Notes under the pieces: model-generated
The model's database searches: none
What the model was told of the DNA's origin: nothing
Seen by the model: only the letters and a program-made list of their open reading frames with translations
In this document: positions 10,007 through 40,174 of the stretch, piece by piece
Layout of the letters: each line of letters starts with the position of its first letter
How positions within the stretch are numbered: position 1 is the first letter of the stretch
Position numbers and translations under genes: made by a program
Source: Opitutaceae bacterium
GTDB lineage: Bacteria > Verrucomicrobiota > Verrucomicrobiia > Opitutales > Opitutaceae
Direction: 5' to 3'
Assembly (NCBI GenBank): GCA_015075305.1
Contig: JABTUS010000014.1
Coordinates: forward strand, 1 to 43,676
Length of the DNA stretch: 43,676 bases

Positions 10007-10438
10007 ATGAATGACCTGCCAACCATATTGATCGTCGATGATGATGAGGGACACGCCATTCTGATTCGCGAGAATCTCGAGGGCGCTGGAGTAAGGAATA
10101 CAATCATCCATTTCAGCGATGGACAGCGATTCTTTGATTACCTGGCCTTGGTTAGGACCCGGCTTCCGCGCGCCTTTGTGATCCTGCTGGATATTCGGAT
10201 GCCCAGGATGGATGGATTCGAGATACTACGGCGCTTGAAAGCGGATTCCGTGTTGAGGAAAATCCCTGTCATCATGCTGACGACCACCGACGACAGCCGG
10301 GAGGTCGAGCGCTGCCACGAGCTGGGTTGCAGTCTCTATCTGCAAAAACCGGTCGATCAGGATAGATTCAACGAGTCAATCCGTCGGCTCGGGTGGTTTC
10401 TGCCTCTGATGATGGTGCCGTCAGTCCCGGCCGCCTGA
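10007..10438 (+). CDS. Single-domain response regulator (CheY/Rcp1-like)
   Basis: This 143-residue protein is a lone receiver domain. The acidic pocket is DDDEG near residue 11, the phospho-acceptor is Asp62 in VILLDIRMPRMDGFE, the switch Thr is in MLTTTDD, and the conserved Lys is in LQKPVD. Its pattern (ILIVDDDEGHAILIRENL) and the long insert before the acceptor Asp resemble Rcp1-type regulators that partner phytochrome-like kinases. It starts at ATG 10007, immediately after the PAS kinase gene, so the two are probably cotranscribed cognates. There is no output domain, so it must act by protein contact or phosphorelay. Confidence 0.93.
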   Translation: MNDLPTILIVDDDEGHAILIRENLEGAGVRNTIIHFSDGQRFFDYLALVRTRLPRAFVILLDIRMPRMDGFEILRRLKADSVLRKIPVIMLTTTDDSREVERCHELGCSLYLQKPVDQDRFNESIRRLGWFLPLMMVPSVPAA

Positions 10439-10450
10439 TCCTGTCAGCCC

Positions 10451-12225: not shown

Positions 12226-12290
12226 CGGGCGCGGTCAACGCCCGTCCATCCAGGACTTGCGCACCGGGCCCGTGATGTTTCCATCGGGGC

Positions 12291-13001
12291 ATGGGCAGCA
12301 ATGACTGGGTCGTTGGCTTCGATGCGGATGACACGCTCTGGCATAATGAGACGATTTTTGAGAGCGTGCATGTGAGATACCGCGCCCTGCTGGCGCGTTT
12401 TCACGACGCAGACACGGTCGATCGGGTGATGTTTGCGACGGAAATGCGGAACCTCGAGCGGTACGGTTACGGGATCAAGGGGTTCATGCTGTCCGCGATC
12501 GAAACCGCGATTGAGCTCAGCGAAGGCAGGATTGCCGCCGCTGAGATCCAGGAGCTCATCGTGCTCGGTCAGACCATGCTTTCGCATCCGGTGGAGCTTC
12601 TGGAAGGCATCCATGAAATCATACCGCGACTGGCCGGCAAACACCGGCTGCTTTTGGTCACGAAGGGCGACTTGAAGGATCAGCAGCGAAAGCTGGAGCG
12701 GAGCGGGCTCCTTCCGCATTTTTCCCATGTCGAAATCGTGCCGGAGAAGGACTTTTTGACATACGAGCGGATCCTTCGTCGCCACGATGTTGATCTCGGA
12801 CGGTTTGTGATGGTTGGCAACTCCGTGAAATCCGACATTCTGCCGGTGCTCGAACTCGGGGGAGCAGGAGTGCACATTCCCTATGCGCTCACCTGGGGAG
12901 CTGAGAAAGTGGATGTGATTCCCGCCTCGAACGGCAGGTTTCATCAATTGAATTCAGTCAGGGAGCTTCCCGCGCTGCTTTGCCAGCTTGTGGATCGATG
13001 A
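12291..13001 (+). CDS. HAD-superfamily hydrolase
   Basis: This 236-residue protein opens with WVVGFDADDTLWHNE, the HAD motif I with nucleophile Asp11 and acid/base Asp13. Motif II is LLVTKGD, motif III is the Lys region DLKDQQRKLERSG, and motif IV is MVGNSVKSDILPVLELG. A helical cap of about 90 residues follows motif I, as in phosphoglycolate phosphatase/DehII-like enzymes. The substrate cannot be told from sequence. It starts at ATG 12291, 65 bases after the LuxR regulator, and may be cotranscribed with it, though no functional link is evident. Confidence 0.9.
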   Translation: MGSNDWVVGFDADDTLWHNETIFESVHVRYRALLARFHDADTVDRVMFATEMRNLERYGYGIKGFMLSAIETAIELSEGRIAAAEIQELIVLGQTMLSHPVELLEGIHEIIPRLAGKHRLLLVTKGDLKDQQRKLERSGLLPHFSHVEIVPEKDFLTYERILRRHDVDLGRFVMVGNSVKSDILPVLELGGAGVHIPYALTWGAEKVDVIPASNGRFHQLNSVRELPALLCQLVDR

Positions 13002-13048
13002 GGGCGGGATCATCGCGGACGAATTTGTGAATGCCAATTGCCCGATGC

Positions 13049-14161
13049 TCAGGCTGCTGGAGGATCCTCTGCACCGGAGCGCCTCTGCGCCGGTACAGCC
13101 AGGGTCACCCGCAGCCCGCGACCGCTTGAATGATTGCGGGCGCGGATCGTGCCTCCGTGGAGCGAGGCGATGCGTTCGCACAGCGTGAGTCCGAGCCCCG
13201 CGCCCTGGGATGTTGAAGCGATCTCCGAATGGACATTGCGGACGAAGGGTTCGAATACACGGTAGTGCTGATCGACCGGCAGACCCGGACCTTCGTCGGT
13301 CATTACGAGCTGCCAGCGTCCGCCCCCCGCGAAACACTCGATCGTGATGGTGCCGTCGCGGGGAGAGACCGCGATGGCGTTTGAGAGCAGATTGAAGAAG
13401 AGTTGTCGAAGCAGGGCCTCATCGACAAGCTGCACACCGCCTGCGGATCTTGTTACAACGATGCGAATCCCATGTTCCCCGGCGATGCCTGAAGCATCGC
13501 GCGCGAGCGCATCGACCAACTCGGTCAGGTTGATGTGCTTCATGTTGACGAGAAGTGTCCCACTGCCGGCCTTTGTCAGAAACAGCACGCCATCGACGAT
13601 CCGCAGCAGGCGCGCCGTTTCCGCAGTGAGCTCACCCAGCATCAGCGCGGATTCACGATTGAGGGATGCATGCGGGAGAAGGCGTTCGGCGCGACGCTGG
13701 TTTTCCGAGAGAGCCGATTTCAATTCAAGCGCGGCGGCCTCGGTCAGCGCGTGTGTCTGTGAATTCGACGATTCCACTTTTTCAAACAGCTGGTTCAGTA
13801 CACCGCCGATGGCCGAAAGGTCATCCTGACCCTCGGTGAGATCGACCTGTCTGTCCATCGTGCGCTGGTTTGCGGTCTCGACGGAGGCGCGGAACGCCTT
13901 GAGCGGCCGAAGCAGCCGGCGCGCACCGATCCAACCCAGGGGGATGCAGCAGACCACTGCGGCGGCCAGTACGATTCCGGAGGCAAAAGAGAAATCAATG
14001 AGCTGATCGCGCTGCTGGGCGCTCAGACCGGTCTCTTGAAACATCCAGGCGCCGAAGAGCAGCGCGGCGCAGGTCAGGATGACCAGGGCCGCAGTCGCAA
14101 GCACAACGGCGCTCAGTCGGATGGCGACGTGACGGTCAAATGATCCTGCGGGCAAAGCCAT
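13049..14161 (-). CDS. HAMP-containing sensor histidine kinase with degenerate H-box
   Basis: With ATG 14161 the product has 370 residues: TM1 (about 15-40), a very short periplasmic loop, TM2 (about 58-78), a HAMP segment (RRLLRPLKAFRASVETAN), a dimerisation helix pair, and HATPase_c with QLFFNLLSNAIAVSP (N-box), DEGPGLP, VFEPFVR and GAGLGLTLCERI. The ATP-binding boxes look intact. The H-box position reads LTEAAALELKSAL where active kinases have a His followed by E-L/F-R/K-T-P-L, so Leu145 (codon CTT at 13729-13727) replaces the phospho-acceptor; CAT to CTT is one base. It may be a pseudokinase, a phosphatase, or a partner for another kinase. The frame is open further upstream, across the holA start. 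No response regulator is adjacent on this strand. Confidence 0.82.
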   Translation of the reverse strand: MALPAGSFDRHVAIRLSAVVLATAALVILTCAALLFGAWMFQETGLSAQQRDQLIDFSFASGIVLAAAVVCCIPLGWIGARRLLRPLKAFRASVETANQRTMDRQVDLTEGQDDLSAIGGVLNQLFEKVESSNSQTHALTEAAALELKSALSENQRRAERLLPHASLNRESALMLGELTAETARLLRIVDGVLFLTKAGSGTLLVNMKHINLTELVDALARDASGIAGEHGIRIVVTRSAGGVQLVDEALLRQLFFNLLSNAIAVSPRDGTITIECFAGGGRWQLVMTDEGPGLPVDQHYRVFEPFVRNVHSEIASTSQGAGLGLTLCERIASLHGGTIRARNHSSGRGLRVTLAVPAQRRSGAEDPPAA

Positions 14162-14284
14162 GGGAGATGCGGCGTCTGAGGATCCGCTCAAGGTGCTCGA
14201 AGGGCAAGCCTCCCGGATGCCGGGAAGCGCACCGGTTGAAATTCCCTCGCGTTCAGATCTCGAATCCGCGCACGCTTGCATCGC

Positions 14285-15424
14285 ATGTCTGAAAAGCGTT
14301 TCCAATTCATCTGTGGGGCGGATGACTTCCTCGTCAATCGTGCGGGGAAGGAGCGTCATGACGCGCTGGCGGAAGAAATCACGGATGAATTTTCGCGCGA
14401 TACACTCAGTGGATTCGCCAACAATGTCGGTGAGGTCGAGGCTGCGGTGAATCGTTTTCGAGAGAGTGTCCGGACGATCTCCATGTTCGGCGGGCGGCGG
14501 CTGGTATGGCTGAAGGATGTGAACTTCCTTGCCGACACCGTCACGGGGCGGGCTGAGGGCACGCTGAGCTGCGTCGAGGACCTGCAGGAGATTCTGGAAA
14601 CGGTCGATCCCCAGCACGTGGCGGTCCTGATCACGGCGTCACCCATCGATCGACGCCGGGCGTTCCCAAAATGGTGTGAAAAGCACGGCGATTTCGTCCT
14701 GGTGGGCGGTGGCGAGGGTGGGGCGACCGCCGAGGCGCTTGCCGGGATTGTGATGGCGGAAGCCAGAACGCTGGGAGCATCGTTCGGGCCCGGAGCGCTC
14801 GATCTGCTTCTGGCCAAGGTGGGTGCGAACACCCGGTTTCTGATCGAGGAAACGCGAAAGCTTGCAACCTATGCCATGCTTCCCGGCGTGCCGTCGGATG
14901 CTTCGACCGGGCGAGTGCTCATCGAGGAGCGCCATGTGGCGGAGCTGACCCCGAACGTCGCGGAGGGCGATTTCTTCGAGTCGGCGGAGGCGTTCTTCAG
15001 TGGTGATCTCGTCCGCACGCTCAAGGCCCTCGAATTGCACTTTTTTAACGGTGGTGACTCCCGGCCCGTGCTTGGAGCGCTGCAGAACCGCAATCGCCTG
15101 CTGCTGCAGATTCGTGCACTTGTTGATGCGGGGGAGGTGCGCGTCGGTCCGCGCGGGCTGGACGGCTTGTCACGCGCGGCGGGCGAATATGGCCGCCATT
15201 TTGCTGGTGCGGCTGACAAGAGCTCCTTCAATCTTTTCAGCCAGAACCCCTGGTATGCTGGCAGGCTCGCGGGTGGCGGAAAATTGCCGTCGATGAAGAG
15301 GCTGATCGACAATCAGTTCGAATTCGTGTCGGCCTTCGAGGAGATCATTCGCCGGCCAGGTGAGCAGCCGGAGGTGTTGCGCGATATGGCTGTACGCTGT
15401 CTGGCACCTGCCGCGGCGGGGTAG
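14285..15424 (+). CDS. holA: DNA polymerase III delta subunit (clamp-loader)
   Basis: HolA opens the beta sliding clamp in the clamp-loader complex. The 379-residue product begins MSEKRFQFICGADDFLVNR (the F-x-x-G-x-D/E-x-F/Y-L start of the family), includes LVWLKDVNFL and VAVLITASPIDRRRAFPKW typical of the domain I mini-AAA fold, and ends with the helical collar domain (NRNRLLLQIRALVDAG, NPWYAGRLAGGGK). The ATG at 14285 is preferred over an upstream in-frame TTG at 14276. It is divergent from the histidine kinase, with 123 bases between starts. HolA is weakly conserved, so the call rests on overall pattern and length. Confidence 0.85.
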   Translation: MSEKRFQFICGADDFLVNRAGKERHDALAEEITDEFSRDTLSGFANNVGEVEAAVNRFRESVRTISMFGGRRLVWLKDVNFLADTVTGRAEGTLSCVEDLQEILETVDPQHVAVLITASPIDRRRAFPKWCEKHGDFVLVGGGEGGATAEALAGIVMAEARTLGASFGPGALDLLLAKVGANTRFLIEETRKLATYAMLPGVPSDASTGRVLIEERHVAELTPNVAEGDFFESAEAFFSGDLVRTLKALELHFFNGGDSRPVLGALQNRNRLLLQIRALVDAGEVRVGPRGLDGLSRAAGEYGRHFAGAADKSSFNLFSQNPWYAGRLAGGGKLPSMKRLIDNQFEFVSAFEEIIRRPGEQPEVLRDMAVRCLAPAAAG

Positions 15425-15495
15425 CGGCAGGTCTTTGATGCAGTTCTGCGAGCATTGCCGGATCCCGTGTGTCAAGGCGGTGCGACTAAAAAGGA

Positions 15496-15525
15496 AAGAC
15501 CCGCCCCAGTGAGAGGGCGGGTCTT
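15496..15525 (-). terminator. Intrinsic terminator after the VPDSG-CTERM gene
   Basis: Perfect 11-bp inverted arms AAGACCCGCCC (15496-15506) and GGGCGGGTCTT (15515-15525) surround an 8-base loop. Read leftward, the stem is followed by TTTCCTTTTT, a U-rich tract, so it best serves the minus-strand gene ending at 15554. It may also stop holA transcripts from the other side, but no T tract follows in that direction. Confidence 0.85.
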
Positions 15526-15553
15526 GAGTCAAAATGGAATCAAGCCAGGCAGA

Positions 15554-16432
15554 TCAGGAGGCTTGCCTGCGACGGGAGATTCCGAAGAGAGCGAGGAGGC
15601 CCGCGCCGAGCAGCAATGCGGTGGATCCTGTATCAGGAACACTCGTGGCGCCACGCACTTCGAAGTTGTAAGTCCTGCTGGTACTGCCGGTGTTGATCGA
15701 GACGTTGTCGAAATAGTCGTCCTGGTTGATGTTGTAGGTGCCAATGCCCATCTGAAGACCGATCACGCGAGCATTGGGGAAATCAATGGGGTCACTGCTT
15801 TGGAATGCGGTCGCCCACTCGGCGAGCGAACGCAACGGCGGACCACCTGCGCCGCTGGGAATTTCAAATCCGCCATTCCACCACCAGCCTCCGGCGTTGT
15901 CGTTTCCGGATCCGGTATTCTGATCAATTGACAGATTGATCCAATCACCCTGTGTTGGGGTTCCCGCTCCATTTGGGAGGAGGTTCCAGTACGGCTCGTA
16001 TACAAGCGCGCCATAGTTGTCGCCAGATCCTGGCCCCGCAATGAGAAGCTTGATCGATGGGGCGGCAGCCGTTTCGGAGGTCGGGGACTTGAAGTAGCTG
16101 TAGCCCAGACTGATGTCAGCCAGCACGCTCGAGGCCGCGCCAAAGTCCCTGTAAGTGGTGACTTCTGCCTTGGCCGCAGTTGTCCCGTCGGTCGTCAGTC
16201 GGGCGGCCCCGGTGGGCAGCGGCTGATTGTTTTCGAGATTTCCACCGACGCCCGAAAGGTCGACGATGGTGGCGGTTCCGCCTGTGCGGACATCATTGGA
16301 ATACCAGGCATCCGGCACTTCCGAACCGGAAGCAACGGGAGTCTGAAAGGAATTGACGACGACTTGGCCAAAGCCTGGAGCCGCAATCAGGAGCGCAGTC
16401 AAGGCGGAGGCCGCTTGAACAACTAACTTCAT
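15554..16432 (-). CDS. Exported protein with VPDSG-type C-terminal sorting signal
   Basis: This 292-residue protein has an N-terminal signal peptide (MKLVVQAASALTALLIAAPG) and a C-terminal tripartite sorting signal: VPDTGSTALLLG, a hydrophobic helix, then basic SRRRQ. This is the VPDSG-CTERM variant of PEP-CTERM, known mainly from Verrucomicrobia and recognised by a dedicated exosortase that cleaves the signal and anchors the protein at the surface or in the matrix. No exosortase gene is in the window. The middle is Gly/Asn/Ser/Thr-rich with Trp-rich patches and looks like a beta-sandwich, but no family was recognised. A strong terminator follows, so it is probably monocistronic. Confidence 0.88.
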   Translation of the reverse strand: MKLVVQAASALTALLIAAPGFGQVVVNSFQTPVASGSEVPDAWYSNDVRTGGTATIVDLSGVGGNLENNQPLPTGAARLTTDGTTAAKAEVTTYRDFGAASSVLADISLGYSYFKSPTSETAAAPSIKLLIAGPGSGDNYGALVYEPYWNLLPNGAGTPTQGDWINLSIDQNTGSGNDNAGGWWWNGGFEIPSGAGGPPLRSLAEWATAFQSSDPIDFPNARVIGLQMGIGTYNINQDDYFDNVSINTGSTSRTYNFEVRGATSVPDTGSTALLLGAGLLALFGISRRRQAS

Positions 16433-30588: not shown

Positions 30589-30789
30589 TTAATTGGGTTG
30601 GGCGGGCTTGGGTGAGGACAAGAGGTTCAGGCGGGCCTTTTCCTCCTTCTTCTCCTGCACGCGCTCGCTGGCTGGGATGGCGAATTCGGATCCCTTGAGA
30701 ACACAGCCCGGGCGGCCGGGGATGCAGTCTGTCTTGAGCCGCAGGCAGTAGTCGCGCGCGATGTCAAAGTGTGGGCAGGAGTAGCTCAT
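30589..30789 (-). CDS. Small four-cysteine protein at the end of the oxidase-like operon
   Basis: This 66-residue protein starts MSYSCPHFDIARDYCLRLKT. Its first 30 residues hold four cysteines (C5, C15, C22, C29) spaced for a metal or Fe-S site, followed by a charged tail (RVQEKKEEKARLNLL). The ATG overlaps the stop of the cytochrome b-ferredoxin fusion by four bases (ATGA), indicating translational coupling, so I infer a role in the same complex, as an assembly factor or small electron carrier. No family is recognised. No clear terminator follows; an 8-bp stem at 30471-30498 lacks a T tract. Confidence 0.7.
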   Translation of the reverse strand: MSYSCPHFDIARDYCLRLKTDCIPGRPGCVLKGSEFAIPASERVQEKKEEKARLNLLSSPKPAQPN

Positions 30790-32903
30790 GGTTCAAATTC
30801 CCAGCCGCGCGTTGGCTCGAAATCGAGCACACTCAGGCGGCGTTCATGCGCGTCAACCTCTCCACTCCAGTTGTGCGGTTCTCCTGAACCGCCGGTCAGG
30901 AGCTGAACGGTGACGTGATGTTTGCCGGGCGCAAGAGGGAGGCGCAGCTCACCCGCGGAAGCGCCATCCGACTGGACTCCCTTGGGTTTGAAGTTGTGCT
31001 CCTGAACGACACCGTCGATCTCGAGCCGCAGCGTCACCGGTGAGCGCGCGCGTTTCGCCGGAAGCTTTCCCCTCATGTGGATCGGACGCGTGTCCTCGGC
31101 TGCGGGGACTGCGACCGCGGAGGTGCCGTCGATCCAGTCGCCGTAGGCGCGGAACATGACGACGAATTCCGGATGGGCGGGATCGGGATTGTGGAAGCGC
31201 GCACTGGAGGCGACCAGCAGCAGGGCCATGCCCAGCGCGGCGACAGCGATTCCCGTCATCCATCCGATGGCGCGTGATGCCTGGCGCTCGTCTGGAGTCT
31301 CCGCCTTGCACAGGGCGGCGGCGACGGCGGCCAGGCGCTCGGGACGCAGGGGATCGAAGTTCACATGGGCGACACGCCGCGGATCGGCGCGATTGGGTCG
31401 CAGTTCAGGCTCGCGCGTGCCCGCGATGCGGGCGGGCATCCAGCGATTGCCTTCACGGCCGAAGGACTCGCTCGAGCCGCAGCCCACGATCAGCACGGCT
31501 GTGGCGCCCTTGGTGATGAGCCGCTCGATCAGCTTGGGCTCGACCCAGCCGGAACAAGGCACCTGCCGGATTTCGTAGCCAGGAATCCGGCGGGCCCAGG
31601 CTTCGCGGTCAAACAGCTCCCAGCCGCCGTCGCTCTGGGCGCAGACGAACGCGAGCGGCTTGGGCGCGCCCTTCGAGCGCTGGGTCGCGACGAACTCCTC
31701 GAGTTCGCGTCCCACGCGGCGCGCGTCGAACCACGCCATGCCGATGGCCTGCGTGTCGCAGGAGCCCGTGCAAATGCCGCAGCCGATGCAGCGGTCGGGA
31801 TCGATCTGGGCCTGCGACGGGAACGGCCTTCCGTCCTTGCGCGGCACCATCGTGATCGCGCCGAACGGACAATCGAGCGAGCAGAGCGTGCAGGAGAAGC
31901 AGCGCGAAGTCTCCACGGCCGCCTGGAATGATGCCCGGGGCCTGCGCCGCGCCATCCACCAGGGCACGGTTAAAAGCCCGATCGCGGCAAGACCGCCGGC
32001 CAGCCAGAGTCCGGGACCGCTCAGGCGCGTGCTCAGTTGCAGCGGCCAGAGGTACCACCAGTCCAGGCTGAAGGCGGCCGGCTTTACGGCCATCTGGGCC
32101 TGCGCGGTGTTGGTAGCCGGAACAATGAGCGATGCGGCGAGCACCGCTCCGACGAGCCAGATCATGAGTCTGCGGTCGGGCAGCAGCTTCGTCCGGCTGA
32201 GCCGCGCGAGGTGCAGCGCGAGTCCTCCCGCGATTGCCAGCGGCAGGGCCATGTGGAGGAAGAAGACGACAAAGAACAGCAGGGAAGGGACGGTGCGGTC
32301 CCGATTAAAAAGCGGCAGCATGGGCTCGCCAAAGATCGGGAGTACGTCCATCACCTTCATGGTTCCCTTTGCCACGAGCTGGGCGCGGTCGTCCCAGACC
32401 AGCCAGTATCCGGTCCACCCGATGAACCAGATGAGTCCCAGCATGGCGAATCCGCTGACCCAGACCAGCCAACGCGCCCCGCCAAACTTGCGCGCCAGGA
32501 AAACGCGCAGCGCGTGCATGAGAATCAGCAGCACCGCTAGATCCGACGAATAGCGGTGGATGCTGCGCACGATTCCACCCGCCGAGTAGGGACCGAGTGC
32601 TTCAAGCGAACTCCACGCCAGCTGCGAGCTGGCTGAATACCACAGGAGCATGAGAACCCCGGAGAGCACCGCGAGCACCAGCATGGCGTTTGCCGACGGC
32701 CCGAGCTGGGCGAGCGGATTGAACGCGCGCGGCCAGGCCCTCTCGATCAGCGTGTCAAGCCGCGTGAGCACGCCGTCGCCGGCTGAAAGCAGGCGCGCGC
32801 CGCGCACGGGCGGAAGCGGTGGTTCGACCGCGGGTGCGGTGCCCGGGACCAGCGTTTCGGCGAGTTCTTCGCAGTCGATGTCGGGATGGTGGTGGTGACT
32901 CAT
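30786..32903 (-). CDS. Cytochrome b - 2x[4Fe-4S] ferredoxin - FlpD/MvhD-like fusion protein
   Basis: In this 705-residue fusion, residues about 45-270 form a cytochrome b N-terminal-type four-helix domain with two His pairs 14 apart (H116/H130 and H217/H231), enough for two b hemes; FIGWTGYWLVWDDRAQ is typical. After two more membrane segments come two cluster motifs, CFSCTLCSLDCP (335-346) and CIGCGICTGSC (372-382). Residues about 415-500 resemble FlpD/MvhD (VPCSGWVEPKLIERL, LIVGCGSSESFG, EGNRW) with only C421, C450 and C475 kept; two usual Cys positions are Ser. A membrane segment and a beta-rich domain of about 130 residues end the protein. It probably links quinol or ferredoxin-level donors to the oxidase-like complex. 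Confidence 0.85.
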   Translation of the reverse strand: MSHHHHPDIDCEELAETLVPGTAPAVEPPLPPVRGARLLSAGDGVLTRLDTLIERAWPRAFNPLAQLGPSANAMLVLAVLSGVLMLLWYSASSQLAWSSLEALGPYSAGGIVRSIHRYSSDLAVLLILMHALRVFLARKFGGARWLVWVSGFAMLGLIWFIGWTGYWLVWDDRAQLVAKGTMKVMDVLPIFGEPMLPLFNRDRTVPSLLFFVVFFLHMALPLAIAGGLALHLARLSRTKLLPDRRLMIWLVGAVLAASLIVPATNTAQAQMAVKPAAFSLDWWYLWPLQLSTRLSGPGLWLAGGLAAIGLLTVPWWMARRRPRASFQAAVETSRCFSCTLCSLDCPFGAITMVPRKDGRPFPSQAQIDPDRCIGCGICTGSCDTQAIGMAWFDARRVGRELEEFVATQRSKGAPKPLAFVCAQSDGGWELFDREAWARRIPGYEIRQVPCSGWVEPKLIERLITKGATAVLIVGCGSSESFGREGNRWMPARIAGTREPELRPNRADPRRVAHVNFDPLRPERLAAVAAALCKAETPDERQASRAIGWMTGIAVAALGMALLLVASSARFHNPDPAHPEFVVMFRAYGDWIDGTSAVAVPAAEDTRPIHMRGKLPAKRARSPVTLRLEIDGVVQEHNFKPKGVQSDGASAGELRLPLAPGKHHVTVQLLTGGSGEPHNWSGEVDAHERRLSVLDFEPTRGWEFEP

Positions 32904-32965
32904 GCGGGTGAGTTGCTTCCTTGCTTTCGCGGACGATGATCGGTGCGGCGATCCCGGCGGAAGGT

Positions 32966-33028
32966 CACGACGAAGCGTGCCCCTCCAGCGGAGGGGGTGA
33001 AACTATTGGAGGGGCACGCTTTGTCGTG
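32966..33028. repeat. REP-like long inverted repeat between the SCO and cytochrome b fusion genes
   Basis: Two 22-bp arms (32966-32987 and 33007-33028) pair with a single mismatch around a 19-base loop; their common core is AAGCGTGCCCCTCCA and its complement. The element lies inside the operon, where it would form a very stable RNA stem between two coding regions. It is not followed by a T tract, so it may protect or process the transcript or be a transposable palindrome rather than a terminator. Confidence 0.85.
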
Positions 33029-33063
33029 CCCAGGGGACGCGCGTTGTGTGACTGCGTCGGAAG

Positions 33064-34065
33064 TCATGGAAGCGAAGCGTCGGCGGTGCGGGGTTCCCTG
33101 AGGAGGTGGAGCAGGCCCTCCCTCAGCCAGGCGCGGTGGCGCGGGTCCAGCGTGAACCGGAAGGCGACGTGCCCGCCGCGGTCGATCAGTTGGAAAAGAT
33201 TGGCGTGGTCGATGATCCCGGTTTCGGGATCGCGCGTGGCGGCAAACTGCAGACGTGTCAGCACGTCGCGCATCGCCGCGGGAGTTTCGCCGTTGACGTA
33301 TCGGAATTCCGGATACGCTAGGGTCTGCGCGGTGGCCATGGCGTCCATGATCTCCGCGGTTTCATATTCCGGGTTGAGCGACAGCGCCACCACGCGCAGG
33401 CCGGCGCGTTCGCTCGCGGGCAGTTCCGCAAGGATGGCGCGAAGCTCCTTGAAGATCTCGGGGCATGCGGTGGTGCAGGCGGCGTAGACGCCGGTCACGA
33501 GCACGACCTGGCCGCGGAGATCGGAGAAGCGGAAGGGCGCGCCCTTCTGGTCGGTCAGCGGCGCGTCCGGCACGGGAAGCTGTACGCGGATGCGGTCGCC
33601 CGGGAACGGTGGCAGGGTTTGTGCCGCTGAAGTGTCGATGGTGGCGTAGAAAACAAGTCCGGCGACCGAGGCGGCCACGGCGCCGAATCCGGCCAGAGCC
33701 GCTCCCCGGTGCCGCCACCAGGTCTGCGGCCTGCGGAGCGCGCGGCGTGCGTCGCGCCAGAGCATGAGGGCGACGAGCACGACGAAGAGCGGCTCGAACA
33801 GCATGACGCCGACGGCGGCCCACGAGACTCCGCCGGTCCGGGGATCGCCCCGGTAGCACCAGAGCTGAAAGTCACGCACGAAACTCCCGATGGCGCCATC
33901 CCCTGTGGGACCGAACACCGTGATCAGGAGGAACGCCTCATAGGCGACCAGGGCGCTGCTTAGAAAAACCAGCAGGCCGGGTCCGGTGAAGAACCGGCGG
34001 GCGGCGGATACAGCGCCGCCCGCCGGCACCGGAGCTACGTCCGATGCCTGGTCGGTCGCTAACAT
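33064..34065 (-). CDS. SCO1/SenC copper chaperone with N-terminal membrane extension
   Basis: This 333-residue protein ends in a thioredoxin-fold SCO domain: the copper site CTTACP and the third ligand His in GIIDHANLFQLID are present, with the family phrase VVLVTGVYAAC. SCO proteins load copper into the CuA centre of subunit II, encoded two genes upstream. Before the SCO domain there are three membrane segments over about 150 residues (ARRFFTGPGLLVFLSSALVA and others), more than the usual single anchor. The gene follows subunit I by 7 bases. Full metal ligands suggest it is active. Confidence 0.9.
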   Translation of the reverse strand: MLATDQASDVAPVPAGGAVSAARRFFTGPGLLVFLSSALVAYEAFLLITVFGPTGDGAIGSFVRDFQLWCYRGDPRTGGVSWAAVGVMLFEPLFVVLVALMLWRDARRALRRPQTWWRHRGAALAGFGAVAASVAGLVFYATIDTSAAQTLPPFPGDRIRVQLPVPDAPLTDQKGAPFRFSDLRGQVVLVTGVYAACTTACPEIFKELRAILAELPASERAGLRVVALSLNPEYETAEIMDAMATAQTLAYPEFRYVNGETPAAMRDVLTRLQFAATRDPETGIIDHANLFQLIDRGGHVAFRFTLDPRHRAWLREGLLHLLREPRTADASLP

Positions 34066-34072
34066 CGCGCGT

Positions 34073-35797
34073 TCACCTCACGGGCCATACGTCGGCGAGC
34101 GCCTTCCAATTGGCGAAATAGTAGACCACGAAGCAGGCGAGGAAAACCAGGGTCAGCACGATGGTGCCGCGCGTCGCGGTGTGGTTGCTGGCCAGAGAGC
34201 CAAGCTGCGCACCGGCCTGGATTGGCGGCGTGCCCCAGTCGGCCATGGGCCGGCCATTGTTCTTCTCTCCCCAGAGCACCGTGCCAACGCAGAGGAGAAC
34301 GAAGGCAAGCAGGCCGATGAAGGCCAGCACGCCGCCGATGCCGAGAACGCCGAGCCAGAGGTGAACGGCCGGGCCGTAGACGCCCTGCGCGTCGACATCC
34401 CAGCTGCGGCGCGAGGCGCCGAGCGATCCGGCGAAGGACATGCCGAAGGCCAGAAGCGTGATGCCGATGCCGAAGAGCCACGGCTGGATGCGGGCCAGGC
34501 CGCGCCAGATGAAGTCGCGCTGAAAGATCAGCGGGATCACGTAGTAGGCGAGCGCCATGAAGGCGAGGGTGGTGCCGCCGACGACAGTCACATGGAAGTG
34601 ACCCGGGATGCGCAGCGTGTTGTGGGCGATGATGTTGATCTGCTGCGTGCCGAGGGTGACGCCGGTGATGCCACCGAGGAAGCCGAAGATGATGACGGAG
34701 AGCACGGTGCCGGAAAGCGCGGGATTGCGCCAGGGCAGGGCGACGACCCAGCCGAAGAGGCCGCGGTTGTAGCCGCGTTCACGCATGGCGATCTCCACGC
34801 CGCCGGGGACGGTGAAGCCGTGGATCATGGAGGCGAGCACGGCCAGGTACATGGCGTAGGACGTGTTCCAGATCTTCCATGTGGAGCCGACGCCCGGATC
34901 AACGAGCAGGTGGTGGGCGGAGGCGAGGTTGATGAAGAGAATGTACAGTGCGAACGCCGAGCGGCAGACGGTTTCGTTCACCGGACGCGCGCCGACGATC
35001 ACATTGGAGAGCAGGTACCAGACCGTGACCATCGCGCAGACATTGACCTGCTGCGACTGGTGGCCGAGGCCCCACCAGATCATGCGGTACCAGATGGGAT
35101 CTGGTTGTGCGGTCCAGCCCATCGAGTAGGTGAAGGTCGGGATCATCGCCATGGCGCCGTGCAGGAGAGTGACGACCGCGATGATCGCGGCGGCGAGCGC
35201 TCCAAATGTCACAATCGGCATGGATCCCTCGTAGGCGTGGTCGCGCTTGGCGACATAGAGTGTCGCGAAGAAGTTGTAGACTCCGACGAGCGTGCCGACA
35301 GCGACGAGGATGATGCCGAGGTAGAACGCCGGGTGGGCGAGCAGCGGCAGGTAGGAGGTCATCATGACGTCGGCCTTTCCGACGAGGATGATCCAGTCCA
35401 CCATGATCGCGCCCGCCAGCATCAGGATGAACCCGACCCATGCGACCTTGCGCGAATAGAGCTTGGCGTTGAGCGGCGAGGTGCAGGCGAAGTAGAGGAT
35501 CGCGACTTCGAAGAACAGGATCCACAGGATCAGCATGTTGATGCCGTGGAAGGTGATGATACGGTAGAACCAGTCTGCCGGCAGCAGGTGCACGGTCTGC
35601 CAGCGGGTGAGGGCGAGGAGCAGCGCGGCGATGCCGCCGAACAGCAGGAAGACGATGCCGGCGACGGCGTTGAGCTTGATGAAACGCTGCGCGGTGAGGC
35701 AGACGCCGAGTCCGGTCGTGCTGCACACGCGCTTGGGTGCGTCGGGTGAGGCGAGCGAATGCGGGCCGATGGGAATGGTGGCTGAAGCTGTGGTCAT
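34073..35797 (-). CDS. Heme-copper oxidoreductase subunit I lacking the catalytic Tyr (B-family-like)
   Basis: This 574-residue membrane protein has all His ligands: H84 and H402 for the low-spin heme, H400 for the active-site heme, and H246, H295 and H296 for CuB (ASAHHLLVDPGVG; NTLRIPGHFHVTVVGGTT). After helix VI His246, active oxidases have a cross-linked Tyr at +4 (GHPxVY); here the sequence is GHQSQQVNV, so Gln250 sits there. No Tyr is found at the cbb3 position in helix VII either. Tyr-less B-family relatives with CuA have been proposed as NO reductases (eNOR-type), so this may reduce NO rather than O2. Operon: 18 bases after subunit II, 7 before SCO. Confidence 0.88.
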   Translation of the reverse strand: MTTASATIPIGPHSLASPDAPKRVCSTTGLGVCLTAQRFIKLNAVAGIVFLLFGGIAALLLALTRWQTVHLLPADWFYRIITFHGINMLILWILFFEVAILYFACTSPLNAKLYSRKVAWVGFILMLAGAIMVDWIILVGKADVMMTSYLPLLAHPAFYLGIILVAVGTLVGVYNFFATLYVAKRDHAYEGSMPIVTFGALAAAIIAVVTLLHGAMAMIPTFTYSMGWTAQPDPIWYRMIWWGLGHQSQQVNVCAMVTVWYLLSNVIVGARPVNETVCRSAFALYILFINLASAHHLLVDPGVGSTWKIWNTSYAMYLAVLASMIHGFTVPGGVEIAMRERGYNRGLFGWVVALPWRNPALSGTVLSVIIFGFLGGITGVTLGTQQINIIAHNTLRIPGHFHVTVVGGTTLAFMALAYYVIPLIFQRDFIWRGLARIQPWLFGIGITLLAFGMSFAGSLGASRRSWDVDAQGVYGPAVHLWLGVLGIGGVLAFIGLLAFVLLCVGTVLWGEKNNGRPMADWGTPPIQAGAQLGSLASNHTATRGTIVLTLVFLACFVVYYFANWKALADVWPVR

Positions 35798-35815
35798 GGG
35801 AGACGGGGCTCGGGG

Positions 35816-36367
35816 TTATTCGACGAAGATCTTTCCGGTCATCGCGTGGTGGCCGATGCCGCAGAATTCATTGCAGACGATGGTGTATTCGCCCTTTGAG
35901 GTGGGCGTGAGCGTGAGCACGTGGTCGTAGCCGGGGACGGCCTGGAAGTTCATGTTGAGCGGCTGGAGCGAGAAGCCGTGCTGCAGGTCGAGCGCGGAGA
36001 GGTGGATGCGGTAGGTCTCGCCGAGACGAAGGCGCAGGGCGGGATACCACTGCCACATGCGACCCATGAGATAGGCGTCGCCGCCGGGGGCGGGTTCGAC
36101 GATGGGAAGTTCCGCGGCGAGTGCGTTGGCGATGGGATTCTTGAACGTGCCGACGCGGTTCGTTTCAACGAATTTCTCGGTGCGTTTGTGGAAGTCATCC
36201 GGTTTGACGGTATAGGCTTCGCCGCTGCTGTTCTGTTTGCCGCGGAAGTGCCAGTAGGGCATCATCAGCGACATCACGAAACACCAGACGAGTGCGAGGC
36301 CGATCCAGAGTTTCTCATGTCCCGCGGGCGCGTGGAACCATGGACCTGTGAGTGGGCGCAGACTCAT
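35816..36367 (-). CDS. Cytochrome c oxidase-type subunit II with CuA site
   Basis: This 183-residue protein has one N-terminal membrane anchor (LWIGLALVWCFVMSLMMPYW) and a periplasmic cupredoxin domain. The CuA ligands are complete: H130 (LDLQHGFSL), then C165, E167, C169, H173 and M176 in CNEFCGIGHHAM. A Trp/Tyr-rich electron-entry patch lies near MWQWYP. A single anchor and short length match ba3/B-type subunit II. CuA implies electrons come from a soluble or membrane cytochrome c or cupredoxin, not directly from quinol. The gene starts at ATG 36367, 15 bases after the one-TM peptide. Confidence 0.93.
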   Translation of the reverse strand: MSLRPLTGPWFHAPAGHEKLWIGLALVWCFVMSLMMPYWHFRGKQNSSGEAYTVKPDDFHKRTEKFVETNRVGTFKNPIANALAAELPIVEPAPGGDAYLMGRMWQWYPALRLRLGETYRIHLSALDLQHGFSLQPLNMNFQAVPGYDHVLTLTPTSKGEYTIVCNEFCGIGHHAMTGKIFVE

Positions 36368-36382
36368 GATGAGGATGAGGGG

Positions 36383-36532
36383 TTAGGGAAGTTGGGCGGG
36401 TTTGGTCAGGAGGATTTCGATCCATCCCCACGCGGAGTAGGAAAGGAACGGGATGAGGACGCCCAGGACGAGAAGCAGCCAGGGGTTGTCCAACAGCTTC
36501 TGCCAGGGGTGTTTTTTGACTTCGTTGTTCAT
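36383..36532 (-). CDS. 49-residue single-TM peptide, probable small oxidase subunit
   Basis: The sequence MNNEVKKHPWQKLLDNPWLL begins a peptide with one hydrophobic helix (about 17-36) and a short tail, starting at ATG 36532. It overlaps the stop of the CuB-less paralogue by four bases and ends 15 bases before subunit II. Its place and form match accessory one-TM subunits such as IIa of ba3 oxidases or the small peptides of cbb3 complexes. No sequence family is recognised. Confidence 0.75.
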   Translation of the reverse strand: MNNEVKKHPWQKLLDNPWLLLVLGVLIPFLSYSAWGWIEILLTKPAQLP

Positions 36533-37971
36533 GGGTGGGAGTGAGCTAAAGAAGAGTCGGTCCGACGCCACCGGCTGATGCGGCGAACCATCACAGTGAG
36601 GAAGAAGATGCCACCGGCCACGGCCACGAGCCCGCCAACGCCCATGACGCTGAGGCCGAGGTATTCGCCGAGCGTGCGGACATGCTGCTCGACGCCGTAT
36701 TGTTTCCGGCCGAGCCCGTAGGCTCCGGCCCAGGCGAATCCCAGGCCGAACACGGCCTGGCCGGCGCCAAACAGGATGAGCTGCAGCCGGGCCCAGCGCG
36801 GCTCCGGAACGCTTGAACCTGCGGGAGCCACCGTGACGCAGAAATCGTAGGCCGCGGCCATGAGTGATATCGTGACGGCGCCGATCGCGCAATGATAGTG
36901 CCCCGGGACCAGCGTGCTCGATCCGCGGATCATTGCCCCCAGAAGAAATCCGAAAAGCGTGAGCAGACCGCTGCCGGCGAGAGCCGCAAAACGAAAATCG
37001 CGAAAGTCGACTTTGTCACTGTCGCGCCGGATGCGGGAGATCGCTGCGATCATGACGACGAGCACGACCGGGAAGATGGTCCAGCGCATGAGGTGCGTTG
37101 CCAGCGAGAAGTAGAGCGTCTTGGTTGTGCCGATGAACGCGAGCAGGGGAAGCAGGGCCTGGGGCAGCACCAGCGCCGCCATGAGCGCGGTCGTGGTGGC
37201 AGGGTAGAAGAGGTCGAATCCCGCCCACCGGCGCAGCAGGTGCAGCCACAGGGCAAGCATCGCGGCGACATTCCCCACTTGGAGGACATGGCCGCCCCCC
37301 CAGAAGAGGAGTTCATAGTAGGCGGAAGGCAGGGTGTCCGGAGTGGTCAGCCAGGAGGCAAGAAAGGTAAGCAGTGCCAGCACATTGGCGGCGGCGGCGC
37401 CGCGCAAGGCCACCACGACGGACGGGGCCATCGCGCGCGCGTCGGTGCGCGCCGGAGTGACCAGTGCCAGGGCGAAGAAAAGACCGGCACCTGAGAACCA
37501 GCAGATAAGTCCCGCGAAGAACATCGGATGATTGATCACGGGTACGTAGTTGGAGAGCACGGGCATCGCCCCGGGCATCAAGGCGCCTGCGAGCAGCCCG
37601 GCGATGCCCAGTGAGGCGAGAGCCAGTGCAATGACGGCCCCGCCGCGATGCATGCGCGGTCCGAGTGCAAGACCGAGGAAGGCCAGCGTTCCGGCCTGAA
37701 ACCACACGACAATTGCGAGGTCGACATGCACAACCAAGGCGCGCTTGAAGAACAGGGGGTCGGTGAACAGCCAGCCCAGAAAGGGCAGCCGCCCCACGAC
37801 GAGCATCAACGATAGCAATCCGGCGAGGACCAGGCTTCCGATGGCGAATAGAAACCATCCTCGTGCGGGCCACTCGTGAAAACCCGCACGCACCCCGGCA
37901 ACCACCGGGTGGGAGACGGATCCAGGCGCGGTGGCCGGCGGTGAAGAAATGGAATAGGTGGTTGGAGGCAC
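36529..37971 (-). CDS. Heme-copper oxidase subunit I paralogue without CuB ligands
   Basis: With GTG 37971 the product has 480 residues and about 12 membrane segments in the subunit I pattern. Heme ligands are kept: H82 in ALVVHVDLAIVVW and H358/H360 in TLVPGHYHCAIGAVT. Helix VI has H228 in WGGGHVLQVGNV, echoing the neighbour's GHQSQQVNV, but the helix VII HH pair is replaced: AFIGTTKTLYF has T282/T283 there. Two of three CuB ligands are missing, so it cannot be an ordinary oxygen reductase; it may carry hemes for electron transfer or structure. The longer frame upstream overlaps the ctaB promoter region and is unlikely. It is the first gene of the operon and lies just downstream of an FNR-like box. 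Confidence 0.8.
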   Translation of the reverse strand: MPPTTYSISSPPATAPGSVSHPVVAGVRAGFHEWPARGWFLFAIGSLVLAGLLSLMLVVGRLPFLGWLFTDPLFFKRALVVHVDLAIVVWFQAGTLAFLGLALGPRMHRGGAVIALALASLGIAGLLAGALMPGAMPVLSNYVPVINHPMFFAGLICWFSGAGLFFALALVTPARTDARAMAPSVVVALRGAAAANVLALLTFLASWLTTPDTLPSAYYELLFWGGGHVLQVGNVAAMLALWLHLLRRWAGFDLFYPATTTALMAALVLPQALLPLLAFIGTTKTLYFSLATHLMRWTIFPVVLVVMIAAISRIRRDSDKVDFRDFRFAALAGSGLLTLFGFLLGAMIRGSSTLVPGHYHCAIGAVTISLMAAAYDFCVTVAPAGSSVPEPRWARLQLILFGAGQAVFGLGFAWAGAYGLGRKQYGVEQHVRTLGEYLGLSVMGVGGLVAVAGGIFFLTVMVRRISRWRRTDSSLAHSHP

Positions 37972-37988
37972 GGCGCGGTTCGTCGCGC

Positions 37989-37994
37989 AGTCTA
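37989..37994 (-). promoter_or_regulatory. -10-like hexamer of the oxidase-like operon
   Basis: On the minus strand TAGACT (37994-37989) matches four of six bases of TATAAT. It predicts transcription starting near 37982, 11 bases before the GTG at 37971. The nearby FNR-like palindrome is centred exactly 41.5 bases upstream of that point, the spacing of class II FNR/CRP promoters, where a good -35 box is not needed. Confidence 0.5.
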
Positions 37995-38016
37995 GAGGAA
38001 GGCGAAAATGGTGGCA

Positions 38017-38030
38017 TTGACGTAGATCAA
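38017..38030. promoter_or_regulatory. FNR/DNR-family binding site (TTGAC-N4-ATCAA)
   Basis: TTGACGTAGATCAA is a near-perfect match to the FNR-family consensus TTGAT-N4-ATCAA and fits the relaxed DNR/NnrR form TTGNC/T-N4-A/GNCAA. It sits in the 100-base divergent region between the oxidase-like operon and ctaB. Relative to the minus-strand -10 it is centred at -41.5; towards ctaB a weaker GGTAAT (38051-38056) gives about -39.5. It suggests activation of both units under low oxygen or NO. No FNR-type gene is in the window. Confidence 0.65.
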
Positions 38031-38071
38031 TGTTTCCGCACACCCATTTGGGTAATGTCCATGGATTCCCG

Positions 38072-38980
38072 ATGAGCTTCCCCGCCGCCACTCCGCTTGC
38101 CGCCGATGCCGGTATCGGTGACAGGACCTCGATCCCCGGGGCGCTGCTTGCGCTGACAAAGCCACGGATAGCCTTCATGTCAGTCGTCACGGCAATGGTT
38201 GCCTATGGTACGGCGCGGCCCGATTCACCGGCGACCCTGGCGACGTTTGCGGGCACGGCGTTGTCGGCTGGAGGAGTGCTGTCGCTGAACCAATGGTGGG
38301 AGCGGGATCTCGATGCGAGGATGCGCCGCACGCTGGGTCGTCCGCTTCCGCAGTTGCGACTCAAACCGATGATGGCGCTCGGCTGGAGTGTGTGTCTCTG
38401 CCTTTTGGGTGTTTTCCTGCTGGCTTTGACCGTCAATATTCAGGCGGCGGTGCTGGCTGCGCTGACCATCGTGACGTATGGCCTGATTTACACTCCGCTG
38501 AAACAGCGCACGCCTTGGGCGACGGAGATCGGGGCGGTTTCGGGAGCCCTCCCAGCGCTCCTTGGCAATGCCGCGGCGGGAAATCTTTGGGCGGCTCCGG
38601 GGGTGACGCTGGCGACCATGCTGCTCTTCTGGCAAATGCCGCACTTCTTCGCCATAGGCTGGCGGTATCGTGATGACTATCGGGCGGCCGGATTCAGGTT
38701 GAGGCCGGCGATTGATGCCAGTGGTCGGTCGACAGCGTCATGGTCATTTGCCCACGCCGTGATGCTCCTGCCCGTTTCGGTTGTGCCCTGGAGACTTGGA
38801 TGGCTAGGAGCCATTTATGGGGTCACCACGCTTGTCGCCGGTTTGCTTTTCGTTGCCTGTGCATGGCGCTTCGTGGTCGCCAGCGATCGCGATCAGGCGG
38901 CGCGCAGGCTTTTCACTGCATCGCTCGTTTACCTGCTTGTATTCCTCGCAGCGCTCCTTCTGGACCAAATTCGTGTGTGA
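38072..38980 (+). CDS. ctaB: Protoheme IX farnesyltransferase (heme O synthase)
   Basis: CtaB adds the farnesyl chain to heme b, giving heme O for o- or a-type heme-copper enzymes. The UbiA-type prenyl-binding motif is clear in LNQWWERDLDARMRRTLGRP (N-x-x-x-D-x-D-x-x-M-x-R-T), with the second region WRYRDDYRAAGFRL; the N-terminus LTKPRIAFMSVVTAMV is typical. The 302-residue length and about nine membrane segments fit the family. It starts at ATG 38072; other upstream ATGs end quickly. It is divergent from the heme-copper operon and shares its FNR-like box, so it probably supplies that operon's heme. No ctaA is seen nearby. Confidence 0.95.
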   Translation: MSFPAATPLAADAGIGDRTSIPGALLALTKPRIAFMSVVTAMVAYGTARPDSPATLATFAGTALSAGGVLSLNQWWERDLDARMRRTLGRPLPQLRLKPMMALGWSVCLCLLGVFLLALTVNIQAAVLAALTIVTYGLIYTPLKQRTPWATEIGAVSGALPALLGNAAAGNLWAAPGVTLATMLLFWQMPHFFAIGWRYRDDYRAAGFRLRPAIDASGRSTASWSFAHAVMLLPVSVVPWRLGWLGAIYGVTTLVAGLLFVACAWRFVVASDRDQAARRLFTASLVYLLVFLAALLLDQIRV

Positions 38981-39060
38981 TTCGGCCCATGCGCAAGGGC
39001 GCAGCCATGGCTGAGTCGTTGTGTACAAATCGAGACAAGACCCTCAACTTTGCCACTATC

Positions 39061-39525
39061 ATGAAAACCATCCTTGCGCCGATTGATTTCTCGCCGATCA
39101 GCAAGCGTATTGTTGATGAAGCCGCCCAGCTTGCGCGCCACCTCAAGGGACGGCTTCATCTCCTCCACATCGTGCCCCCACCGATTGTCACGCAGAGTGA
39201 ATATGTCACCGAGAAGGGCGCTGAGTTTGCGGCGCTTACCGTTGATGCCATGGCTGAGGAGCTCAAGAAGGTGGCGCGCCCGCTTGAGGCGACGGGACTG
39301 GTGGTTGAAACCACAGCCGTGCTCGGATTTCCGGGCGAAGTGATCATCGAGAAGGCCAGGAAACTCAAGGCCGACTACCTCGTGGTGGGATCCCACGGGC
39401 ACGGCGCGTTCTATGATCTGATTATTGGGAGCACAACAAGCCGGGTTCTCAAACAGGCGGACTGCGCGGTGGTCATCGTACCCGCGGAGAGGAAGAGCCG
39501 GAGATCAAGGAACGGAGCAAAGTAG
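39061..39525 (+). CDS. Universal stress protein (UspA family, ATP-binding type)
   Basis: This single 154-residue Usp domain begins MKTILAPIDFSPISKRIVDE and has the ATP-binding motif G-2x-G-9x-G-S/T in GSHGHGAFYDLIIGSTTSRV. The start at 39061 matches the family N-terminus; the frame extends upstream to ATG 39008 without support. It lies 80 bases after ctaB on the same strand and may be cotranscribed. Usp genes are common members of FNR/DNR regulons, which fits the FNR-like box upstream of ctaB. Confidence 0.93.
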   Translation: MKTILAPIDFSPISKRIVDEAAQLARHLKGRLHLLHIVPPPIVTQSEYVTEKGAEFAALTVDAMAEELKKVARPLEATGLVVETTAVLGFPGEVIIEKARKLKADYLVVGSHGHGAFYDLIIGSTTSRVLKQADCAVVIVPAERKSRRSRNGAK

Positions 39526-39619: not shown

Positions 39620-40015
39620 CTATTTTGATGCGGCATCCTTCACCGATCTGGTCGGGAGCCCGCTCTTCTTCCAGTCGGCCAGTCCGCCTGCGTTCGATGC
39701 CTTGTAGCCGAGCTTGTTGAGGGCTTCGGCGACGACGCTTGCCCGACGTCCGGAATGACAGTAAAGGATCAGCTGCCTGTCCCCGATCGTGGCGAGGAAG
39801 GGTTTCCACTCCTTTTGCTCGCCGTCAAAGTCCGACTTGGAGAGCAGCCGGGCTGGTTCGGCGACTCCGGTCTGCGCCCACTCCTTTGGCTCGCGCACAT
39901 CGATGAGGATCGCCTTGCCGTCGGCGACAAGCTGGGCGGCATCCTTGGGATTGATCCTTGCCGCATCCGCAAGGGCGATGGAGGCGAACAATGAGAAGAG
40001 CGCGAATAATTTCAT
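39620..40015 (-). CDS. Periplasmic rhodanese-domain protein
   Basis: This 131-residue protein from ATG 40015 has a signal peptide (MKLFALFSLFASIALADAAR) and one rhodanese domain: INPKDAAQLVADGKAILIDV, REPKEWAQTGV, and the active-site loop YCHSGRRAS with the catalytic Cys. Single-domain exported rhodaneses bind or transfer sulfane sulfur or act as sulfur carriers outside the cytoplasm. The longer frame upstream is a shadow without signal-peptide form. It is probably monocistronic. Confidence 0.93.
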   Translation of the reverse strand: MKLFALFSLFASIALADAARINPKDAAQLVADGKAILIDVREPKEWAQTGVAEPARLLSKSDFDGEQKEWKPFLATIGDRQLILYCHSGRRASVVAEALNKLGYKASNAGGLADWKKSGLPTRSVKDAASK

Positions 40016-40174
40016 GATCGTTTGCAGTGTGAACCGGGAGAAACGGGGAAGTATTCCGCACACATGGCTGCTGGCAAACATTGCTTTGGTGCCAGCCCGC
40101 GGACGCAGCGCGCCTGTCACTGGGCTGGTCAGAATTCTCGGGCTAGCTTCAGGCAAGCGGGCCCGCTTCGGTTT

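Follow-up and report, generated by a model that had tools for sequence, protein, structure and literature searches.

Gene content and conservation of the locus

Seven adjacent genes from an Opitutaceae bacterium of the Verrucomicrobiota (contig JABTUS010000014.1, assembly GCA_015075305.1), lying in a stretch of 43,676 nucleotides that is referred to here in its entirety as the window, were proposed in a preliminary description to form one operon for an undescribed respiratory reductase of nitric oxide (NO) or O2. Judged from its sequence, the operon very probably encodes an NO reductase of the eNOR type (ba3-a1), accompanied by maturation and partner proteins. On reading of the sequence, all seven open reading frames proved real and located on the minus strand, and the gene order, ATGA overlaps and short spacers originally reported were confirmed. 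From 5' to 3', the genes encode a paralogue of subunit I, a transmembrane (TM) peptide, the CuA subunit II, subunit I, an SCO protein, a cytochrome b/Fer4/FlpD fusion and a Cys peptide, as laid out below with the remaining features of the locus.

36529..37971, minus strand: paralogue, a full-length haem-copper oxidase subunit I homologue without the CuB His triad (ligand alignment, profile, AlphaFold2, Foldseek)
36383..36532, minus strand: TM peptide of 49 amino acids with a single TM helix, a conserved small subunit (tblastn)
35816..36367, minus strand: subunit II, with one TM helix and a cupredoxin domain bearing the CuA ligand set (COX2 in Pfam, ligand counts)
34073..35797, minus strand: predicted catalytic subunit I of the eNOR type, with Gln250 at the Tyr position (COX1, E 7e-66)
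33064..34065, minus strand: SCO/SenC copper-insertion protein with extra N-terminal TM helices (SCO1-SenC in Pfam; helices by hydropathy)
32963..33031, no strand assigned: inverted repeat in the SCO-fusion spacer, a copy of an interspersed palindrome (matches in the same genome)
30786..32903, minus strand: fusion of a six-helix dihaem cytochrome b, two [4Fe-4S] sites, FlpD, a TM helix and a periplasmic beta domain (Pfam; topology predicted by hydropathy)
30589..30789, minus strand: Cys-rich peptide of 66 amino acids, accessory, in few relatives only (tblastn, Cys-pattern search)
38017..38030, read on the minus strand: FNR/DNR-type box TTGATCTACGTCAA, 46-59 nucleotides upstream of the GTG at 37971
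38030..38980, plus strand: cyoE, haem o synthase, divergent from the operon (TIGR01473 above cut-off)

The paralogue stop codon (36529-36531) overlaps the start of the TM peptide at 36532 as ATGA, and the fusion stop overlaps the Cys-peptide start at 30789 in the same manner. The spacers around the CuA subunit, subunit I and SCO measure 15, 18 and 7 nucleotides, respectively, and that between SCO and the fusion measures 160. Pfam matches across the operon comprise COX1, COX2 and SCO1, together with Cytochrome_B, Fer4 and FlpD in the fusion. No ATG occurs near the N-terminus of the paralogue, whose reading frame is open to beyond 38190, and the GTG at 37971 is its likely start.

Subunit I is present at an identity of at least 69% in 17 of 115 genomes, that of the window included, and in all 16 relatives that carry it (114 genomes searched) the paralogue, TM peptide, CuA subunit, subunit I, SCO and fusion genes follow one another in identical order. 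A scan of a genome collection with a paralogue profile, of which the best 80 of 179 stretches were kept, returned the full six-gene order in 62 of 80 loci, a set that includes near-duplicates and genomes shared with L024-L039. Among the other 18, a contig end lies within 3.6 kb of the paralogue in 16, the TM peptide is the only gene not detected in L083, and L107 truly deviates; because the paralogue was the query for all 80 loci, the frequency of its absence from eNOR operons cannot be read from them. By record titles (L096 has no phylum there), the loci span Verrucomicrobiota, Balneolota, Acidobacteriota, Myxococcota, Spirochaetota, Planctomycetota, Calditrichota and proteobacterial or unplaced bins. 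The proposal that these genes form one unit is upheld by both sets, and the synteny search has borne out the joint conservation of six genes across several phyla, but not that of the seventh. The Cys peptide was seen, by tblastn and one Cys-pattern search, only in the window, L024-L026 (= L040-L042), L043, L049 and L054, and is not part of the conserved core.

The TM peptide has a tblastn match in 16/16 relatives and also stands upstream of the CuA gene in Defluviimonas and Thermomicrobium, and the SCO protein keeps Cys197 and Cys201 in 79/79 sequences and His287 in 77/79. Early ligand counts took in matches running past stop codons (16 rows of the paralogue, 2 of subunit I and 3 of the fusion across all loci); the alignments used below for the paralogue (A3, 48 rows) and the fusion (A4, 51 rows) are clean ones from which rows with in-frame stops were dropped.

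Catalytic subunits and identity of the reductase

Helix VI of the window subunit I reads GHQSQQVN and places a Gln where oxidases hold their cross-linked Tyr; the catalytic helix VI Tyr of A- and B-family oxygen reductases is absent from it. The pattern GHxxQQ[VI]N recurs in all 93 collected subunit I rows (82 distinct), and Tyr is retained in the haloarchaeal and aa3-type comparators. The original assignment of the operon to the respiratory NO/O2-reductase type with a Tyr-less subunit I is sustained. Among 85 rows, four of which (L069, L086, L088 and L107) held no real subunit I and were later dropped, the haem and CuB ligands His84, His246 and His400 are found in 85, His402 in 84 and the His295/His296 pair in 81, and the sole flagged row without [AG]HH (L003) reads MHH. 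The cupredoxin subunit II, encoded upstream of subunit I, keeps the CuA ligands Cys165, Cys169, His173 and Met176 in 85 of 86 rows, Glu167 in 84 and His130 in all.

Replacement of the helix VI Tyr by Gln together with a cupredoxin subunit II is how eNOR is defined in a study of Chloroflexi (PMC8756737, Table A4), and a ba3-a1 enzyme has been reported to possess NO reductase activity with reduced cytochrome c (PMC8879329). The presence of SCO within ba3-a1 operons has likewise been published (PMC6431628). By every sequence mark tested, the reductase of the window is an eNOR, and because its Gln-for-Tyr exchange and cupredoxin subunit II are the published definition of that enzyme, it is not an undescribed one. 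The earlier view of an undescribed reductase is at odds with prior accounts of eNOR, of SCO in ba3-a1 operons and of verrucomicrobial eNOR (PMC8756737, PMC6431628, PMC13274419), and a novel reductase family was rejected, as the Gln signature and the context fit eNOR. Assignment to the cNOR or qNOR families does not agree with the sequence, which has Gln rather than Glu and a CuA subunit II rather than a haem c subunit.

In a tree of 57 rows, none of them an accession from the published eNOR trees, the window copy clusters with Gln-type copies from Defluviimonas, Thermus and Thermomicrobium (25 rows) at weak support (85/53), and two haloarchaeal B-type oxidases that retain the Tyr are placed with the A- and C-type rows (100/99). 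L080_par is not in the tree; L021_rel, a doubtful reading with a branch length of 10, fell among the paralogues, and other long branches meet.

That the enzyme is a B-family oxygen reductase in which merely the Tyr has changed would agree with its closest solved structures, which are ba3-type oxidases. This is highly improbable, given the Gln at the Tyr position in 93/93 rows, the association with NirK and the FNR/DNR-type box described below, and the NO reductase activity published for the family (PMC8879329).

The CuB-less paralogue and the cytochrome b/Fe-S/FlpD fusion

The longest frame of the paralogue has no Pfam match, and a shorter form matches COX1 at E 1.4e-7, below the curated cut-off; a COX1 match was obtained for 33 of 48 family members. 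Its relationship to subunit I is evident from profile comparison, in which it matches eNOR subunit I at E 2.5e-44, and from an AlphaFold2 model (predicted local distance difference test score, pLDDT, 88.3) with a predicted haem-copper oxidase subunit I fold, for which the top Foldseek matches are haem-copper oxidases, among them the oxidase 7deg (E 7.2e-7) and Thermus ba3 oxidase 1ehk (E 1.4e-6). Searches by sequence with the paralogue profile against solved structures, and with the paralogue against plasmids, returned no match. In the tree, paralogues stand apart from the catalytic subunits (99/100), and their end branches are about four to nine times longer than those of subunit I in the pairs from L033, L036, L038 and L078, the last being a Pelagicoccus isolate that carries the operon.

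Three His that align with haem ligands (His106, His382 and His384) and one that aligns with a CuB ligand (His252) are invariant in the paralogue family (48/48). The helix VII HH pair occurs in none of 97 paralogue rows (88 distinct), 95 of which lack HH anywhere in the scanned region and two of which carry it elsewhere, and the window copy retains one of the three CuB His. Position 295 in helix VII is Gln in the window and His in 25/48 members, and some relatives may therefore keep two of the three CuB ligands. Ordinary reduction of NO or O2 would not be expected of such a CuB-less protein.

The paralogue can be separated from eNOR. In L107 and L198, both of a Calditrichota group, it is followed by SCO and an aa3/caa3-type oxidase; the L107 block (8980-16206) comprises the paralogue, SCO, the aa3/caa3-type oxidase genes and cyoE, and L198 has the same block. 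The L107 oxidase reads the Tyr motif HPAVY, and its genome (G470) has no eNOR match. At L197 (5997-8559), a paralogue stands alone 13 nucleotides behind a gene for a cytochrome P450; none of the other operon genes was found in the 18 kb that were fetched. The idea that this P450 is a P450-type NO reductase is unsupported: none is named among the best 60 of 358 solved-structure matches, which are led by CYP125, YjiB and CYP113A1.

The paralogue most probably carries haem and acts as a partner in assembly or electron transfer. Alternatively, with two haems and no CuB, it might bind gas at an open haem and act as a sensor of or sink for NO or O2, as its invariant haem ligands, its lost CuB triad and its occurrence both with eNOR and, away from eNOR, beside an aa3/caa3-type oxidase would allow. 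This function is unlikely, however, as no signalling domain was found with Pfam, His252 could cap the second haem, and the SCO and oxidase neighbours fit a role in biogenesis equally well.

Two further haem-copper homologues were observed elsewhere in the same genome (G000). One (C1:581110-582372, L149) is a second degenerate COX1 homologue with an open frame of 497 amino acids and neither HH nor HxH motifs, and the other (C6:311491-312729, L147), a haem-copper subunit placed with the cbb3 row in the tree, has the motifs MHQGVGMW and THH.

Among the 115 genomes, the fusion protein is present at E<=1e-40 in 17/17 of those with eNOR and in 0/98 others, and by record titles it occurs alongside eNOR in Verrucomicrobiota, Balneolota, Acidobacteriota, Myxococcota and Spirochaetota. 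Its N-terminal part carries His116/His130 and His217/His231, each pair 14 residues apart and found in 51/51 members, which fit a dihaem cytochrome b with six TM helices by hydropathy. Eight Cys, also in 51/51, fit two [4Fe-4S] sites. The FlpD domain, whose model is matched by 39/51 members and whose Cys450 and Cys475 are present in 37/51 each, is followed by a TM helix and a periplasmic beta domain. The structure model of the fusion (pLDDT 89.0) has the cytochrome b of bc1 as its best Foldseek matches over about 280 columns, which exceeds the four-helix half covered by cytochrome b6. The loop between helices five and six reads D-x-W-Y-x-x-P-x5-R, with D281, P287 and R293 in 51/51, W283 in 44 and Y284 in 45, which is the spacing of the PEWY quinol-site motif of cytochrome b. 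In Defluviimonas (Pseudomonadota), the fusion is split into a 526-amino-acid cytochrome b/Fe-S/FlpD gene and a separate 172-amino-acid gene, whose product matches the periplasmic part of the fusion (E 1e-28, 87 bits, two-sequence search), and a search of plasmids returned seven records, only Defluviimonas covering more than 20% of the length. A protein with cytochrome b6, Fe-S (DMSOR_beta-like) and FlpD parts, RME88945.1, is listed in Table A3 of PMC8756737, there not as part of eNOR.

Electron transfer across the membrane is the most likely function of the fusion. It would either reduce copper for SCO-dependent assembly or supply the enzyme with electrons taken from quinol or a donor in the cytosol, and these two roles appear about equally likely. 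In the first case, where it would be a CcoG-like copper-reducing factor that passes electrons from Fe-S and haem to periplasmic Cu(II) for SCO to load into CuA and CuB, a prospect that we rate at somewhat under an even chance, its position directly downstream of SCO in 16/16 relatives would be explained, and eNOR cores exist that have no fusion. Its layout also recalls that described for CcoG, a membrane protein in which two tetranuclear Fe-S clusters are combined with an Ig-like periplasmic domain at the C-terminus (PMC7558416). Against this, CcoG as described there lacks a dihaem cytochrome b, and no CcoG/FixG family is among the 19 Pfam families recorded for the 51 fusion members (E<=0.01). 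A periplasmic His-Met pair had been considered as a copper site, its His being found in 51/51 members of the alignment; the Asn at this position in Defluviimonas makes a copper site there doubtful and likewise speaks against a CcoG-like function.

In the second case, a comparably plausible one, the fusion would serve as an electron-input module for the reductase, oxidizing either quinol at the outer face or, by way of FlpD and Fe-S, a donor in the cytosol. The helices and the top fold matches to bc1 cytochrome b favour this role, as does the loop placed outside, whose D281, P287 and R293 keep the quinol-motif spacing; FlpD and the Fe-S sites are predicted to be cytosolic by hydropathy, and among the 115 genomes exactly those with eNOR hold the fusion. 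The Pfam match, on the other hand, covers only the first half of the cytochrome b, a sequence search with the second half alone found nothing relevant, and no Rieske protein or cytochrome c1 is among the operon genes by Pfam. The incomplete conservation of Cys450 and Cys475 and the presence of CuA as an entry port already also count against electron input.

The SCO-fusion spacer contains a repetitive extragenic palindromic (REP)-like interspersed repeat that is matched 135 times in the genome (a count that includes partial matches and either strand, three of the matches being the spacer copy itself). A function as operon terminator or attenuator is not favoured, because of these genome-wide matches and because the spacer measures only 85 nucleotides in the same-genus relatives L024-L026.

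Regulation, denitrification context and relation to known systems

The box TTGATCTACGTCAA is the sole strict match to TTGAY-N4-RTCAA in the window, where 0.02 are expected from 50 mononucleotide shuffles. It precedes the operon in 16 of the 17 eNOR genomes, the contig of the 17th ending there, and among the 79 scan loci with enough upstream sequence it stands in front of 54 of 55 verrucomicrobial copies; the reversed pattern was found upstream in none of the 79. The genome of the window has 27 box sites versus nine for the reversed pattern, and one box lies 138-151 nucleotides upstream of the nirK start. Two CRP-type regulators score above cut-off in this genome, one of them about 4 kb from nosZ. 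Neither shows an apparent N-terminal FNR Cys set, which is a feature of FNR.

NirK scores above cut-off in 10 of the 17 eNOR genomes versus 14 of the 98 others (Fisher p 2e-4, kinship ignored), and NirK-like matches at E<1e-20, a limit chosen after the matches were known, occur in 16/17 versus 16/98 (p 6e-10, kinship ignored). NosZ at E<1e-30, a limit chosen in the same way, is found in 7/17 versus 12/98 (p 0.008, kinship ignored). At the level of gene neighbourhoods, nirK is encoded at an identity of at least 57% in the fetched flank of 16 of 80 loci, one match being partial, and weaker flank matches at 28-41% identity may be other copper oxidases; at L201, nirK and SCO genes diverge from the eNOR operon. 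A verrucomicrobial isolate with NirK and eNOR has been described to convert 4 mM nitrite into 1.5-1.7 mM N2O (PMC13274419).

Several observations weigh against reading the operon as one for an eNOR-type NO reductase with its maturation and partner proteins. Support for the eNOR group in the tree is weak (85/53), NosZ above cut-off is not significantly enriched (4/17 versus 11/98, p 0.23), and one eNOR genome (G047) has no NirK-like match at all. The nosZ of the window's own genome (G000 C1:445995-447247, L151) has lost its N-terminal portion, and the rest is divided between two frames; the pathway may therefore end at N2O or be decaying. The box is found in front of 0/24 non-verrucomicrobial loci with enough upstream sequence, and FNR/DNR regulation is therefore not general for eNOR. 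The eNOR loci of Thermus and Thermomicrobium have no fusion (about 17.7 kb fetched) and that of Defluviimonas has no paralogue (17.7 kb fetched), while G690 (L200) and G797 (L201) have eNOR operons and no paralogue genome-wide at E<=1e-30; neither companion is therefore needed for the catalytic core.

At the present start of the truncated nosZ (L151), two FNR/DNR-type boxes were observed.

The operon shares its upstream intergenic region with cyoE, whose true start may lie nearer 38072 and which is divergent upstream of the operon in 9 of 16 relatives (L024-L027, L030, L033 and L035-L037). Beyond cyoE lie genes for a rhodanese-domain protein (39620-40156) and for a protein that resembles a universal stress protein (38740-39525), and matches to both genes stand beside cyoE in L025 and L026.

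In the mechanism that we propose, the enzyme would consist of subunit I, with two haems, CuB and Gln in place of the cross-linked Tyr, together with the CuA subunit II and the small TM peptide. Electrons would enter at CuA, probably from cytochrome c, and pass to the low-spin haem, and two NO would be reduced to N2O at the haem/CuB site. SCO would load copper and CyoE would supply haem O, while a regulator of the CRP/FNR family (DNR-like) may turn on the operon together with nirK, such that NO released by NirK is removed.

A broader arrangement, in which eNOR, the CuB-less homologue and the quinol-type cytochrome b/Fe-S/FlpD protein form one membrane assembly rather than a two-subunit enzyme, would take its electrons for NO reduction straight from quinol or a donor in the cytosol, with the paralogue as a haem-only partner that serves ordinary oxidases in other lineages. 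We consider this improbable. In the passages of the eNOR literature searched, a scope outside which the main eNOR paper lies, no account of a role for the paralogue or fusion was found, and a figure in PMC6431628 draws such clusters.

Genes for eNOR are often labelled as cytochrome c oxidases (PMC8756737), and in genomes the conserved companions might serve to distinguish eNOR of this type from oxidases. They also point to a candidate partner system, which, if the fusion feeds or matures the enzyme, would explain the electron or copper supply of these NO reductases. For a member of this superfamily, to be retained as a CuB-less homologue next to reductases of NO as well as of O2 would be unusual.

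Compared with known systems, the ba3-type (B-family) oxygen reductases provide the nearest subunit I structures, are among the top fold matches of the paralogue, and share the CuA subunit II, but differ in having the catalytic Tyr. To our knowledge, they have no companions like the paralogue or fusion. The bc1/b6f cytochrome b resembles the fusion in its four haem His at 14-residue spacing and in the fold match over about 280 columns, whereas the fusion additionally carries Fe-S sites and FlpD, and its operon has no Rieske partner. Modules of the HdrA2/MvhD type share the succession of Fer4 and FlpD (a partial match to NCBIfam HdrA2, far below cut-off), but no flavin domain was found in the fusion, which is membrane anchored. 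The CcoG/FixG cupric reductase is likewise a membrane protein with two [4Fe-4S] clusters and a periplasmic C-terminal domain, encoded beside oxidase assembly genes (PMC7558416), and differs from the fusion, which has a dihaem cytochrome b and FlpD and no match to the CcoG/FixG family. The cNOR and qNOR enzymes belong to the same superfamily as the reductase of the window and share with it the predicted reduction of NO, although their active-site residue is Glu rather than Gln (PMC8756737, Table A4) and cNOR has a haem c subunit in place of CuA. The closest agreement is with eNOR (ba3-a1), with which the operon shares the Gln in place of Tyr, the CuA subunit II, the SCO gene and the association with NirK, and from whose treatment in the relevant parts of PMC8756737, as a predicted two-subunit enzyme with no discussion of the paralogue and fusion as partners, it departs through these two conserved companions.

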